Source: Chthonomonadaceae bacterium (lineage in GTDB: Bacteria > Armatimonadota > Chthonomonadetes > Chthonomonadales > Chthonomonadaceae). Taken from it: a stretch of DNA of 39,052 nt. How positions within the stretch are numbered: position 1 is the first letter of the stretch; the number at the start of each line of letters is the position of its first letter. Position numbers and translations under genes: made by a program. A model generated the notes under the pieces. The model saw only the letters and a program-made list of their open reading frames with translations, was not told the DNA's origin and made no database searches. Where the stretch lies: positions 26,002 to 65,053 of the forward strand of contig DAIDKH010000014.1 in the NCBI GenBank assembly GCA_027450145.1, given 5' to 3'. Below, one piece after another: positions 15,411-37,937 of the stretch.

Positions 15411-16691
15411 CTACTTGGTCTGCGATACAGGCACAAGCGGAAGCATTTCAGAAGGTGGCACTCCGGATGCTTTTCGATTGAGCGGTTCCTGATAGTAGGA
15501 TGTTTCTGGCATAAAACCACCATTAATAAGATAGAACCGGTCACCAGTTACACCACTCCCCCTGTCCAACCTATCTTTCAATCCGTTGTTGGTGAAGGTA
15601 AAATGCGCAGTGGTGAGTTCTTGCCAAGGTGAATCTGTGGTGGTAATCCACTGGGGTCCAAATTCTGCCAGGCGCTCCTCGTACCCATTGCTGCCATTAA
15701 AATCCTCATTGAACGAGTACAGCCCGCGAAGGTAACCTCCATCGTGAGGTGCCTTGAAGCTGGCAATTAAGCCCCACTTTCCTCGTTCCGGGAAGAAGAA
15801 ATATCCACTGTACACGGTATATTCACCCTCTGGCTGGGCGGTCACCATGAACTTGTAAGTTTCATTTTTGTGCCAATGGTATACCAGGTGACTGTGAAGC
15901 CCTGTACCCTCATTGCCGAAACCACCTACAAACACGCCTTTGCCATGCGCGACCAGTGTAACGCGATTGGCTGCGGCAACCAGGCTGCGATGTATAGGTT
16001 CTGAGCCACTGTCCCACACAGAGAATATGATCCTCCGCTCCGTAGGGCTGTTTACCTGTATACCAAAATAGCCACGAGAGAAGCCACATGCCATGTAATA
16101 CGACCATAAGGGTGTTCGACGAACAGTCACCTCATTGTAGAAGCGGGTTATTTTGGAGCCGGGAGGGTACTGATACCACAGGTGAACCGACGGGCAGGCG
16201 CCATTAGGATTGGTACTAAAATGCGCTTCCCTTACGGCTGGACCAGACAACTGCAATGCCTGGGGATTACCAAATGTGGGTCCGCTACGTGATATTCCAG
16301 ATAGTTGGAACTGATATGCGCCTGGCGATGGGATTGAGTACGTTCCAAAATCGGCAGTTACCACATCCGCAGCGCCTCGGACTTTCACAGTGCGGCGCAC
16401 CCCTGCCACCTGCATCTGCAATGTAGAAGTCTGCCCCTCTGGCAGCGCAAGCGTGACGTTTACGTGCAGCTTGTCGGGCTGGCGTATTACGCCGTACCAT
16501 ACCACGTGCTGACGGCCGTTGTTCCACCCTACAATGCCCTGATCCTTGGATATCTGAATGCCTTCTGGGTCCGGCTGACTGAAAGCCGTGTAAGACGGGA
16601 CGCTAAGCGTGGCTTCCGCCGCCACGACAGATTGTGAGCTAATCATAATCGCTCCTACCGTCGCGAGTGCTGCAATATACCTAAGTTTCAA
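15411..16691 (-). CDS. Secreted DUF3472-domain protein
   Basis: A 426-residue exported protein with an N-terminal beta-rich part and a C-terminal DUF3472-like part; I believe the N-terminal part is DUF5077-like. Recognisable DUF3472 stretches are SVWDSGSEP, GFGNEGTGLHSHLVYHW, YSGYFFFPERGKWGLIASF and LRGLYSFNEDFNGSNGYEER. TTG 16691 is taken as the start: GGAGGTAA lies about 10 nt upstream, and it gives a clean signal peptide (KLRYIAALATVGAIMISSQS, cleavage near VVAAEA). The alternative ATG at 16742 overlaps the preceding stop (TAATG), has a poor ribosome site and adds 17 residues before the signal peptide. It is the last gene of the GntR-pseudopilin-lipoprotein operon. DUF3472 proteins often occur near carbohydrate-degradation genes; the activity is unknown. 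Confidence 0.83.
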   Translation of the reverse strand: MKLRYIAALATVGAIMISSQSVVAAEATLSVPSYTAFSQPDPEGIQISKDQGIVGWNNGRQHVVWYGVIRQPDKLHVNVTLALPEGQTSTLQMQVAGVRRTVKVRGAADVVTADFGTYSIPSPGAYQFQLSGISRSGPTFGNPQALQLSGPAVREAHFSTNPNGACPSVHLWYQYPPGSKITRFYNEVTVRRTPLWSYYMACGFSRGYFGIQVNSPTERRIIFSVWDSGSEPIHRSLVAAANRVTLVAHGKGVFVGGFGNEGTGLHSHLVYHWHKNETYKFMVTAQPEGEYTVYSGYFFFPERGKWGLIASFKAPHDGGYLRGLYSFNEDFNGSNGYEERLAEFGPQWITTTDSPWQELTTAHFTFTNNGLKDRLDRGSGVTGDRFYLINGGFMPETSYYQEPLNRKASGVPPSEMLPLVPVSQTK

Positions 16692-16741
16692 ACCACTATT
16701 ACCTCCGTGATTAATCACTGCGTTGCGTAACGAATACCACA

Positions 16742-16978
16742 TTATCTACCTGCCGAGGCGCGTGCTGGCACTGTTAAGCGTGGAACTCCTGGAGGCAATT
16801 GTGTAGATGGATGTGTAACCACACCTGGTGCAGCAGGAGGTACCCTGCTCTGCATCTGCCTTGCCAACGCAGGAGGAATAGCAGGAGCGCTGGGTGAGTG
16901 GTTGCAGCCGCAAACTGCACTCAGTGCGGCTGCAACCACAAAAAGGGTAAGCCTGCCGCACACCGTCGTTTTCATCAT
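16742..16978 (-). CDS. Small Pro-rich lipoprotein
   Basis: A 78-residue protein. The N-terminus is a lipoprotein-type signal (LTLFVVAAALSAVCGC) with a Cys that can be lipidated in VCGC-N; the -1 Gly fits, the -2 Cys is unusual. The mature part of about 53 residues is rich in Pro, Ala, Val and Arg, with no recognisable domain. AGGAG lies 4 nt before the first of two adjacent ATGs. It is placed between the pseudopilin gene (64 bp upstream) and the DUF3472 gene (immediately downstream). A similarly sized and placed Pro-rich membrane protein occurs at 35810-36031. Both contain a short RASA tetrapeptide near the C-terminus, which may be chance. Function unknown; an anchor or assembly partner of the pseudopilin or enzyme is a guess. 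Confidence 0.75.
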   Translation of the reverse strand: MMKTTVCGRLTLFVVAAALSAVCGCNHSPSAPAIPPALARQMQSRVPPAAPGVVTHPSTQLPPGVPRLTVPARASAGR

Positions 16979-17042: not shown

Positions 17043-17867
<825 letters not shown>

Positions 17868-17882
17868 TCTTTACGACCTCCT

Positions 17883-17897: not shown

Positions 17898-17942
17898 GCA
17901 GAAAATGTCGCGCATCGCGCACTGCCAAGGCGCTTTTACAGC

Positions 17943-19022
17943 CTAGCGGCGGGGTGTGGTGCACGTATCACGCATCTTGAGTTGGGGCTGTACCACCCGC
18001 TCATCAGATGCATTCGGCAACCCGTCCATCATTGAAACGAGCATCTCAACCGCCAGCTCACCCAGTTCATACCTGGGGTGTTGTACAGTAGTAAGGGCTG
18101 GCTGGATACTTGTCGACTCCGATATGTCATCGTATCCACAGATCGACAACTCCTGTGGAACGTTAATACCCACCTGCTTACATCGTGCAAGTAGGTGCAT
18201 CGCCCGGTAATCAGAGGTGGCAAATATGGCTTCTGGCCGATTTGTCAGCCCCATCAGCTCGTCAAGCGCGTTCCAGTCTTCATCCTGTAATACGCCGTTT
18301 GTCCGCTTTACCAACGCTGGGTCCAATTCGATGCCCGCTTCCTTACAGGCGCGCACATATCCATCGAACCTTGGGCGCGACCATTCCGTGTCATTGCGGC
18401 CCACGTACGCTATACGCTTATGTCCCAATTGAACCAGATAGTTCGTTGCGACGTAAGCTCCCCGCTCCATGTCCACTCTAACAGAAGGGTAACCGGCGCC
18501 AGGCGCATTGACAAGAACACATGGGCTGCGTTGACTCTCCGCCAGTTGCAGGCCCTGCATGTACTCATTCCAAGACATCGCCAGGACGACGTACCCTGTG
18601 CTTGCATCTGCAGGTGGGACGTTATGAAACCCACTCATCGAAATCTGCTCGAGCCGACAGCCATGCTGTTTCGCCCCGCTCACAATACCCAGCATTATTT
18701 CCAACACCTCGTGGTATGTCTCGATGGCGCTGTACTGCCGTTCCACGTCAGCTACAAGCAGGGTCCTCACGGTATACTCGGTTAGCCGCTTGGTTACAAT
18801 CGTTCCGCGGCCCTTACCGCGCTTCTTCAGCACGAAACCCGCGTGGGCCAACTCGTCCAATGCTTTACGTACAGGAGCCTCGCTTACTCCGTACAGTTTA
18901 CAAAGGTCTGGCAGTGCTGGAATAGCCTCAAGATATCGAAATTCACCGGTGTTTATCTTCTGCAGAATGTCATCGTAAATTCGTTGGTGAAGCGTCTCCT
19001 TGCTAAGGTTGGCCAGCCTCAT
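17943..19022 (-). CDS. GntR-family regulator with LacI-type ligand-binding domain (AraR-like)
   Basis: A 359-residue transcription factor. The start ATG 19022 has AGAGG 8 nt upstream; codons further upstream to 19106 run through the promoter and are unlikely to be translated. Residues about 7-75 are a GntR winged helix-turn-helix (LHQRIYDDILQKINTGEF, YGVSEAPVRKALDELAHAGF, KRGKGRGTIV). From about 85 onward it has a periplasmic-binding-protein-like sugar-sensing domain of LacI type (NYLVQLGHKRIAYVGRN, EAIFATSDYRAMHLL, LSICGYDDISESTSIQPALT, TTVQHPRYELGELAVEML). This arrangement is that of AraR of Bacillus. It heads an operon with a pseudopilin, a lipoprotein and a DUF3472 protein and likely controls them in response to a sugar. 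A palindrome in its own promoter points to autoregulation. Confidence 0.92.
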   Translation of the reverse strand: MRLANLSKETLHQRIYDDILQKINTGEFRYLEAIPALPDLCKLYGVSEAPVRKALDELAHAGFVLKKRGKGRGTIVTKRLTEYTVRTLLVADVERQYSAIETYHEVLEIMLGIVSGAKQHGCRLEQISMSGFHNVPPADASTGYVVLAMSWNEYMQGLQLAESQRSPCVLVNAPGAGYPSVRVDMERGAYVATNYLVQLGHKRIAYVGRNDTEWSRPRFDGYVRACKEAGIELDPALVKRTNGVLQDEDWNALDELMGLTNRPEAIFATSDYRAMHLLARCKQVGINVPQELSICGYDDISESTSIQPALTTVQHPRYELGELAVEMLVSMMDGLPNASDERVVQPQLKMRDTCTTPRR

Positions 19023-19038
19023 TGCAATGCCTCTTTCA

Positions 19039-19056
19039 TAAAGTGTATACACTTTA
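19039..19056. promoter_or_regulatory. Putative operator: 18-bp perfect palindrome over the -10 box
   Basis: TAAAGTGTATACACTTTA is identical on both strands. It covers the -10 box and predicted start site of the regulator operon. Its length, AT-rich flanks and TGTATACA core suit a dimeric winged-helix regulator of the GntR family. The encoded protein is the obvious candidate, giving autorepression. Binding is inferred. Confidence 0.75.
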
Positions 19057-19079
19057 ACACAAACACTGTCCTGTGTCAA
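19051..19079 (-). promoter_or_regulatory. Sigma-70-type promoter of the GntR-regulator operon
   Basis: On the minus strand, TTGACA (19079-19074) and TAAAGT (19056-19051) are separated by exactly 17 bp. The -35 box is consensus and the -10 box matches 4 of 6. The predicted transcript starts about 20 nt before the regulator ATG. The -10 box is part of an 18-bp palindrome. Confidence 0.8.
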
Positions 19080-19400
19080 GCAATTTCTTTGACTAATATA
19101 TGCCAACTTACCAGCCAGTAGCTACACTGGCTGCCGTACGCCGACTGGCGATAAGCTTTTGACAGATTTACGGCCACAAGTGATATGGCAGCACCGGGCG
19201 GTCTTCGCATTAAACTCCTCTACCAATAAATTATGCTGGCTTTCAATAAAAACAGTGAACAACCACGGCTGTTTGCAGTCTGTTAAATCGCAGTTCGGTT
19301 ATAACCAAAACTTCCAAATCTGGTGAATTAATTGGACCGAGCTCGCAAATTACAATGTGGGATATTCGCCTTAGAAAAGGCCGTAGCAGGAGAAACGATT

Positions 19401-36059: not shown

Positions 36060-36824
36060 CTAGTTTTCCTGAGGATTGATACGCACACGATAGTATCCCC
36101 AGAATACTGGACTCTCTTTGGTAAGTGTTAACTTCGCAAACTTGGCATGCCCGTCCGCAAAGGTAAAGTTTGCGCCTCCAAAATGGCGTGGAACGCCGTA
36201 GAACCATGAAACCTGGTCGCTGCTGAGCCAATAGGTATGTTTGGTCCCGTCGCCGGCGTCCAGATAATAACCTATAAAGGTATTCCAAAGGTAGTCACCA
36301 TCAGAGTACATGCCAGTCTGCGCTGGCAGGTTGATGCCAGCCAGAGTAATGGGTCCACCAGTTAAAGCTCCCGCTAAAAGAAGCTCGTTAATTCCATAGC
36401 CGAGGTGGTAATCACCAAGGCTGTTCACGTTTGGCGACTTTTGGAACTGGGCAGGTTCAGTGGGTGAACCAATGAAACAGGTGTACATCCAGAAAGGGTA
36501 ACCGTCATAATCTGGATCCTTGAACAGCCCGGCACTTTTAACATATGGATAGAGCATATCTGGGTAGTAAAGCGCCGGAGTGTTCGGGTTATTATTGTAA
36601 CAGCCAGGATATGGCGCGTATAACAGTGTTTCGTCGTAATCCTGCGCGTACATCATGGTTGCTGTACCAATTTGCTGCAAATTGGATATGCAGGCGATAG
36701 CGCGCGCCCGCTCCCGCGCCTGCGCAAAGACAGGAAACAGAATTGCTGCAAGAATTGCGATAATTGCAATTACTACCAACAGTTCAATCAGGGTGAAGCC
36801 TCTAATCTCGTTTCGAGATGCCAT
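36060..36824 (-). CDS. DUF1559-type pseudopilin
   Basis: A 254-residue prepilin-like protein. The ATG at 36824 is chosen because GGAGG lies 7 nt upstream; a GTG one codon earlier is less likely. The leader MASRNEIRG is cut before [20 protein letters not shown], with Glu at +5, and [19 protein letters not shown] follows. The C-terminal [20 protein letters not shown] is the usual DUF1559-type ending. The first 60 residues are almost identical to the pseudopilin at 17043-17867, while the globular parts differ, which fits a shared assembly machine and different partners. It lies 57 bp downstream of the LacI regulator in a ten-gene operon. Confidence 0.94.
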
Positions 36825-36881
36825 CACTGATCCTCCCGTTTAGATAATGAACACACTTCGACTCCATATTGAGATCGAAAG

Positions 36882-37901
36882 TTAGACCGACCTTCCATTG
36901 GCCACGCGCTTCGCCAGCGGCGCGGATGACCCTCTCACTACCAGGCGCGGCGCCAATACGGTACTGGCAACCGGCTGGCCCTCTACCATGGCGATCAGCA
37001 GTTCCATCGCAGTTTCACCCTGGGATATTTGCGGTTGATGCACGGTGGTAAGTGGTGGGTTGATAAGCGGCGCCCACCGTAGGTCGTCGAACCCGACGAC
37101 AGAGATATCCTGCGGCACTCGCAACCCAATCTCCTGCAGAGCCTGAATGGCCCCCACAGCAATCACGTCGTCCGCGCAGAAAACAGCTGTAAAATCGCGC
37201 AATGCCTTTGCACGCCTTGTTACGGCAGCAAATGCGGCCTCACGGTCTACAGCTGCCGGCACGTTTATAGGTTCAAGCCTCACACCGAAATCCCTCGCGG
37301 CTTCGCGCGCGCCCTCTTCACGAAGCTGACTATGAACAAAATCATATCCAACATATAAAATGTGACGGTGCCCCAAAGAAGCCAAATGCTCTACTGCAAG
37401 CCTTCCGCCAAGGCGGTTATCTACTGCAACATACGTTTGCGGTCCACAAGCATCCGCCCGCAGCAGAAGTATTGGTATCTCCATCTTCTCAAGCCTATCG
37501 ATGCCCTGCTGCGAGATTGAATAACGAGTGCAAATCACGCCTTCTATACGGCGGTCCACAAGGCGGGATAGGTGCGCTTCCTCACTGGATCCTCCGAACC
37601 CGCTAGTGTTCAAAATGACGTCGAATCCTCGTTGGCTTGCTACGTTCTCAATTCCTTGGGCTATTTCTTCAAAAAACGAGTTGGTAAACCGGCCCAGGAC
37701 AGCCCCGACTAGATAGGTGCGCCCAGTGCTGATAGCACGCGCGGAGGCGTTAGGGCGATAGTTCACAGATCTAGCATATTCCTGAACCCGCTGTCGAGTT
37801 CGAGCATTCACTACCGGGGCATCGTTAAGTGCCAAGGAGACCGTGGAATACGACAGATCCAGGCTACGCGCTATGTCTTTTATAGTGATATGGTTTCGCA
37901 A
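36882..37901 (-). CDS. LacI-family transcriptional regulator
   Basis: A 339-residue sugar-responsive regulator. TTG 37901, with GGAG 9 nt upstream, is the likely start; another TTG at 37928 is possible and would add 9 residues. The helix-turn-helix is ITIKDIARSLDLSYSTVSLA and the hinge helix region is NYRPNASARAISTGRT. The effector domain is of periplasmic-binding-protein type (YLVGAVLGRFTNSFFEEI, LASLGHRHILYVGYD, DFTAVFCADDVIAVGAI, ISVVGFDDLRWAPLINPPLT). It heads the ten-gene sugar operon and has its own promoter with an AAACGTTT-centred near-palindrome at the start site, so autoregulation and control of the operon are likely. Confidence 0.94.
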   Translation of the reverse strand: MRNHITIKDIARSLDLSYSTVSLALNDAPVVNARTRQRVQEYARSVNYRPNASARAISTGRTYLVGAVLGRFTNSFFEEIAQGIENVASQRGFDVILNTSGFGGSSEEAHLSRLVDRRIEGVICTRYSISQQGIDRLEKMEIPILLLRADACGPQTYVAVDNRLGGRLAVEHLASLGHRHILYVGYDFVHSQLREEGAREAARDFGVRLEPINVPAAVDREAAFAAVTRRAKALRDFTAVFCADDVIAVGAIQALQEIGLRVPQDISVVGFDDLRWAPLINPPLTTVHQPQISQGETAMELLIAMVEGQPVASTVLAPRLVVRGSSAPLAKRVANGRSV

Positions 37902-37923
37902 GGTTTTGTACTCCAACTCAAAT

Positions 37924-37937
37924 TTCAAACGTTTTAA
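37924..37937. promoter_or_regulatory. Putative LacI-type operator at the operon start site
   Basis: TTAAAACGTTTGAA (minus strand) is an imperfect 14-bp palindrome with a central CG and a perfect AAACGTTT core. LacI-family operators are typically short palindromes with a central CG. It begins 2 bp after the -10 box, so binding would block initiation. No second copy was noticed in the window. Confidence 0.65.

Follow-up and report, generated by a model that had tools for sequence, protein, structure and literature searches.

A perfect palindrome overlapping the promoter of a GntR-type regulator gene with a LacI-type sensor: a candidate operator ahead of a regulator-pseudopilin gene pair in a Chthonomonadaceae bacterium

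In AraR of Bacillus subtilis, a GntR winged helix is fused to a LacI/GalR-type sensor. AraR operators are palindromic, and Arg-63, the equivalent of Arg-45 in FadR, makes the main base contact (PMC4494728). The same source gives the general form of GntR-family operators as NyGTNxACNy and that of HutC-type operators as NyGTMTAKACNy. Pseudopilin expansions are described from Armatimonadetes: Fimbriimonas carries 79 PulG (pseudopilin) genes, 65 of them with pfam07963, and its pili are ascribed to attachment (PMC4072686).

The locus described here lies on the minus strand of a 39,052-nucleotide stretch of DNA from a Chthonomonadaceae bacterium of the phylum Armatimonadota, referred to as the window, and comprises the following features:

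19074..19079, minus strand: -35 box TTGACA, 6/6 in three orthologous loci and present also in the 50% orthologue
19051..19056, minus strand: -10 box TAAAGT, the first six minus-strand bases of the palindrome; box and 17-bp spacing are the same in G000 (the genome of origin), G011, G012, G008 and G015
19039..19056, no strand: 18-bp perfect palindrome TAAAGTGTATACACTTTA, the proposed operator; unique, and conserved in three orthologous loci
19030..19036, minus strand: ribosome-binding site AAAGAGG, read from the sequence
17943..19022, minus strand: regulator of 359 aa with a GntR winged helix (PF00392, residues 12-71) and a LacI-type sensor (PF13377, residues 194-354), from domain matches
17877..17882, minus strand: ribosome-binding site AGGAGG of the pseudopilin gene, read from the sequence
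17043..17867, minus strand: pseudopilin of 274 aa with a prepilin N-terminus (PF07963, TIGR02532), from domain matches
15411..16742, minus strand: DUF5077 + DUF3472 protein of 443 aa, from domain matches, its N-terminus signal-peptide-like by eye; gene order conserved in G011 and G008

The site, its promoter and the regulator operon

The initial annotation had proposed an 18-bp perfect palindrome that begins at the -10 box and has bases in common with it. Both statements are correct: the two arms of TAAAGTGTATACACTTTA measure 9 bp each and join without a spacer, and TAAAGT (19056-19051) belongs to box and palindrome alike. The regulator gene follows at a distance of 16 nt, starting with ATG at 19022 behind AAAGAGG. 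Together with TTGACA (19079-19074), 17 bp away on the minus strand, TAAAGT scores 10/12 against the consensus, and TG precedes this second hexamer. The promoter had been called a consensus one, which is generous: the -35 box is perfect, whereas the -10 box agrees at only 4/6 positions. Promoter-like matches in a 5-kb scan stayed at chance level (4 found, 5.4 expected). The promoter owes its credibility to its conservation in orthologues.

The palindrome is the only match to itself at up to 3 mismatches, both in the window (none appeared in 100 shuffles) and in the 4.14-Mb draft genome G000 with its 168 contigs. AAAGTGTATACACTTT conforms to the GntR-family form NyGTNxACNy (PMC4494728). The presumed operator overlaps the -10 box of the regulator's own promoter, an arrangement expected where a regulator binds at its own core promoter and represses it. 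A 22-bp imperfect palindrome at 19112-19133 (CAGCCAGTGTAGCTACTGGCTG, minus strand) was also considered and was dropped, as it is conserved in neither G011 nor G008.

The chimeric architecture of AraR is found in one 359-aa protein, with PF00392 at E 1.7e-13 and PF13377 at E 2.3e-36. To this extent the regulator can be called AraR-like, as had been suggested, but the likeness does not include specificity. In its recognition helix, SEAPVR stands in place of the Ser-Arg-His-Thr-x-Arg of AraR (register set by eye, with the motif and Table 1 in PMC4494728 as guides). At the position of the arginine that contacts G (Arg-45 of FadR, Arg-63 of AraR), all 7 of the 7 aligned orthologous sequences have Glu, Asp or Ser in the register set by eye. 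With the main base-contact arginine missing, the target of AraR cannot be transferred to this protein.

The order regulator, pseudopilin, DUF3472 gene on one strand, another point of the initial annotation, is present here and recurs in G011 and G008. The G008 pilin gene lies between the other two at L060 7738-8556, masked by an antisense frame in the mechanical ORF list; in G015 the regulator is followed by a pilin and then by the contig end. The regulator stop codon is 75 bp away from the pilin start, which has a strong ribosome site. Because 300 bp separate the pilin gene from the DUF3472 gene, a second promoter in this gap is possible; we infer that DUF3472 shares the transcript of the pseudopilin. 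A short GC-rich repeat, TGCGCGATGCGCGACATTTTC, lies between the regulator and pilin genes at 17901-17922 of the window; it is identical in G011 and absent in G012 and G008.

The pseudopilin matches TIGR02532 and PF07963, and reaches 21.6 bits against PF07596 (DUF1559), for which the cut-off is 23.3. TIGR04294 (H-X9-DG) matches a paralogue at 36060-36827 and gives no match for the pseudopilin at 17043..17867. A search with its predicted structure (mean pLDDT 63) returned no PDB match with E below 5. For DUF3472, the literature offers no useful functional account at the level of abstracts, and the solved relatives 4qhw and 8pmu bear no functional name.

Conservation of the site and search for further copies

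A search of 291 genomes of the phylum found matches to the regulator with E no higher than 1e-45 in 7, counting G000; G008 is listed in the same family as G000. In G011, G012 and G008, whose regulators are 92, 82 and 64% identical, 18/18, 18/18 and 17/18 positions of the palindrome are retained, as are TTGACA (6/6) and the 17-bp spacing. The 17-bp spacer itself has only 8, 12 and 6 identical positions in these genomes, the 40 bp before the -35 box have 23, 16 and 10, and the 15 bp after the palindrome, ribosome site included, have 14, 12 and 5. Because promoter and palindrome are kept while the spacer and upstream DNA diverge, they stand out in these alignments as a clear phylogenetic footprint.

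The footprint has its limits. The 50% orthologue in G015 keeps TTGACA-17-TAAAGTGTATA, that is, the promoter and the left half-site, and has lost the right half; at the 48% (G058) and 43% (G032) orthologues both promoter and palindrome are absent. The link between palindrome and regulator thus does not extend to all members of the family. The palindrome was found beside the orthologous regulator gene in four genomes. In G008, the ORFs beyond the far side of the promoter differ (ORF lists were compared by eye) and the site stays with the regulator, so it evidently goes with the regulator operon.

A wider carbohydrate regulon, also anticipated in the initial annotation, did not materialize, as the search of G000 at up to 3 mismatches produced no second site. 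A more permissive search used a 14-bp core with up to 2 mismatches and the reversed core as control. It yielded 13 places in G000, 9 in G011, 3 in G012, 10 in G008 and 21 in G015, compared with 7, 5, 7, 6 and 18 control places, respectively. The 13 places in G000 include the known site, and all 12 others were inspected. Nine lie inside called ORFs of at least 190 aa; among these are the only one-mismatch place (C23) and the place in C12, which is nevertheless located just upstream of a likelier start. The place in C20 falls within a doubtful 110-aa ORF, while C8:25647 and C13:60812 are intergenic. Gene context in the other genomes was established for six places (one in G008, two in G011, three in G015) and, through region L067, for one more in G015.

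The sole lead to a regulon is a weak one: ATGTGCATACACTT at L184 1486-1499 (C12:49685 of G000), which differs from the core at 2 of 14 positions and lies some 70 bp ahead of the probable start of a gene that resembles a GH95 glycosidase gene (by eye). It is missing from the places found in G011. Another candidate, AAGAGTATACCCTT, occurs in G000, G011 and G008; it was rejected as a shared site, since the G000 and G011 copies fall within a gcvT-like gene (by eye) and the G008 copy is intergenic.

Other regulators and their pseudopilin neighbours

Perfect palindromes were scanned for in 268,111 bases of G000, a sample enriched for regulator loci. Four even ones of at least 18 bp were found, against 1.0 expected with uniform bases; three of them immediately precede a LacI/GntR-type regulator, and the fourth is located between a regulator of this kind and the gene that follows. 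When arms of at least 8 were sought in the 150 bp preceding each gene and in its first 90 nt, 5/32 regulators had a perfect palindrome (4/31 without the regulator at 17943..19022), compared with 1/172 other ORFs. Genes with less than 150 bp upstream were excluded from this count, which kept 32 of the 33 regulators, and the 172 include false ORFs, the calls being mechanical.

In a conservation test against orthologues, which 30 of the 33 regulators have, a palindrome was obtained for 15/33 and none for 18/33; it was matched in an orthologue at up to 1 mismatch for 10/33. Conserved perfect or near-perfect palindromes include TCAACTTAACCGGTTAAGTTGA (L074), TGACTAAGCGCTTAGTCA (L073), ACTATCACGTGATAGT (L089, not directly followed by a pilin) and ATGTTATCGATAACAT (L099). 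The position relative to the -10 box was compared at nine promoters chosen for a visible palindrome, namely those of eight of these 15 regulators and that of L081, read by eye; L078, L084_3, L085, L086, L092_3, L095 and L100_2 are outside this set. In eight of the nine, the palindrome overlaps the box or starts up to 4 nt after it, and in L073 it starts 13 nt after; by eye, the sites of L092_3 and L095 begin about 6 nt after the box. The eight palindromes other than TAAAGTGTATACACTTTA all stand beside LacI-type regulators, and six of them have a central CG, whereas TAAAGTGTATACACTTTA has the form GT...AC. Eight further regulators in G000 are GntR-type by eye, and none of them showed a conserved palindrome in the test against orthologues. 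Imperfect or other kinds of sites may precede them, as suggested by GTCTAGAC before L079.

Several individual loci deserve mention. At L074, which belongs to a regulator-pilin pair, the 22-bp perfect palindrome TCAACTTAACCGGTTAAGTTGA (2871-2892; C2 of G000) is placed 4 nt past the -10 box and is mostly kept in the 55% orthologue of G008. At L081 (3208-3227; C75), the 20-bp perfect palindrome TTGTTGTACCGGTACAACAA starts 4 nt after TTGACA-17-TAAAAT; it stands ahead of a 787-aa gene, with a LacI-type regulator on its other side. The paralogous regulators L089 and L091 have the core CTATCACGTGATAG in common, and another paralogous pair, L078 and L093, has the near-identical TGATAAAGTAACTTAATCA and TGATTAAGTAACTTAATCA with the palindrome TGATWAAGTAACTTAATCA. 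Such near-identical sites suggest cross-control, each member of a pair perhaps acting on the other. Upstream of 3065 in L076 (C8), a GntR-type paralogue (by eye) has the conserved TATGGTATAACATGGTCTA in place of a palindrome, perhaps reflecting recognition of a direct repeat.

Regulators with a LacI-type sensor are closely associated with pseudopilin genes. In G000, 37 matches to Peripla_BP_3 and 68 to the prepilin N-terminal motif were counted. At 20 of the 37 regulators, a pilin in the same orientation starts no more than 500 bp downstream, whereas chance would give 0.17 (0.0045 each). For the seven other genomes the limit was 700 bp, combined with a motif search. At this limit pairing was seen at 17/30 loci in G011 and 12/21 in G008 (covering 30 of 34 and 21 of 21 matches), and at 4/6 in G007, 4/6 in G010, 5/6 in G044, 2/6 in G058 and 2/6 in G032, six loci each out of 19, 24, 13, 15 and 43 matches. 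L127, L160 and L173 are cut by contig ends and were placed by hand. All pairing counts come from Armatimonadota genomes. In 40 aligned regulator-adjacent pilins, the N-terminus is near-invariant. The window itself contains a second pair at 36060-37928, a LacI-type regulator followed by a pilin, with genes for a sugar ABC transporter and a DUF4434 protein adjoining; its promoter TTGACG...TACAAT is followed by TTAAAACGTTTGAA, conserved in G011. The Chthonomonas genome has been described as disorganised, many usually operonic genes being scattered (PMC4959169), which makes such tight pairing all the more notable. No description of a pairing between sugar-sensor regulators and pseudopilins was found in the literature, seen mostly at the level of listings.

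Proposed circuit and comparison with known systems

From the features of the DNA, we propose that TAAAGTGTATACACTTTA is very probably the private operator of the adjacent regulator and that the circuit is one of negative autoregulation. In the absence of ligand, a regulator dimer on the palindrome would cover the -10 box and the predicted transcription start, keeping RNA polymerase off. The start, expected about 7 bases past the -10 box, would fall inside the palindrome; with both elements there, binding of the dimer and of polymerase should be mutually exclusive. A ligand would then bind the LacI-type domain and cause the regulator to leave the DNA. The nature of this domain makes a sugar likely, most probably one released from a glycan. 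On the freed DNA, regulator and pseudopilin, and probably also the DUF3472 protein, would be made until the ligand is exhausted. Because the genome has one site, the regulator most likely represses its own operon alone. The footprint, the uniqueness of the site, its GntR-family form, the excess of palindromes at regulators and their positions near the -10 box speak for this proposal. Weighing against it are the half-site of G015 and the missing palindrome of G058 and G032, the lack of a conserved palindrome at the eight further GntR-type regulators, the absent base-contact arginine and the chance-level number of promoter-like matches.

The promoter might instead be controlled by some other, perhaps global, transcription factor to which the site belongs. 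The binding protein cannot be assigned from sequence alone, and the near-identical sites at two pairs of regulators (L089/L091 and L078/L093) indicate that cross-control happens or is possible. A global factor is nevertheless hard to reconcile with a single genomic copy at up to 3 mismatches; furthermore, the site accompanies the regulator gene in four genomes and its GT...AC form fits the GntR family (PMC4494728). We therefore regard this explanation as unlikely. Opposite regulation by the same protein is very improbable. Activation is the mode of some one-component regulators, but a protein bound over the -10 box and the predicted start should block polymerase, and a promoter of 10/12 looks strong unaided.

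The palindrome could also be a conserved promoter or RNA element to which no protein binds. Its left part is the -10 box, and G015 keeps this part despite the loss of the right half. Yet the right half is superfluous for a -10 box and is still conserved in three other species. A hairpin is unlikely too, as transcription beginning some 7 nt past the -10 box would include only part of the palindrome. We give this possibility hardly any credence. Repression of the operon by its own regulator, which we infer from the geometry of the site, would be an ordinary mechanism of a known kind; the interest of the locus lies mainly in its being a clear member of a repeated regulator-pseudopilin cassette.

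Tentatively, we imagine that Armatimonadota might repeat one such cassette, consisting of a one-component sugar sensor and a dedicated pseudopilin and closed by its own product through an operator at or just after its own -10 box. A dozen to twenty units per genome would switch displayed or secreted pilins according to the glycans met, while a few cassettes, which seem to share operators, would form small sub-networks. The two cassettes of the window also carry DUF3472 or sugar-transport genes. If true, the scheme would account for the dozens of pseudopilins encoded in Armatimonadota genomes, and their abundance becomes testable, as each pilin would follow the ligand of the neighbouring regulator. 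The context hints at a rule: direct coupling between LacI-type-sensor regulators and pseudopilin genes, in many cases accompanied by a core-promoter operator. TAAAGTGTATACACTTTA itself represents a testable candidate operator in a phylum whose regulation is sparsely documented.

AraR acts from several operators, and its box differs in sequence from TAAAGTGTATACACTTTA. The sugar genes and multiple operators that characterize AraR function in B. subtilis have no counterpart at this locus: the targets of AraR are genes for arabinose and related sugars (PMC4494728), while in G000 there is a single site with pseudopilin and DUF3472 genes behind it. The orthologues also differ from AraR in having Glu, Asp or Ser in place of Arg-63. 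As for the pilins, the 68 matches in G000 resemble the PulG expansion of Fimbriimonas and have the same prepilin N-terminus; unlike in our proposal, a tie to sugar-sensor regulators goes unmentioned in the part of the Fimbriimonas account considered here (PMC4072686). Finally, the site is similar to HutC-type GntR operators in being an AT-flanked GT...AC palindrome, and differs from them in its core, GTGTATACAC, and in the LacI-type sensor of its regulator. A further resemblance to HutC-type sites is seen at the GntR-type paralogue L079 (by eye), where GTCTAGAC follows shortly after the -10 box and is conserved in G011.
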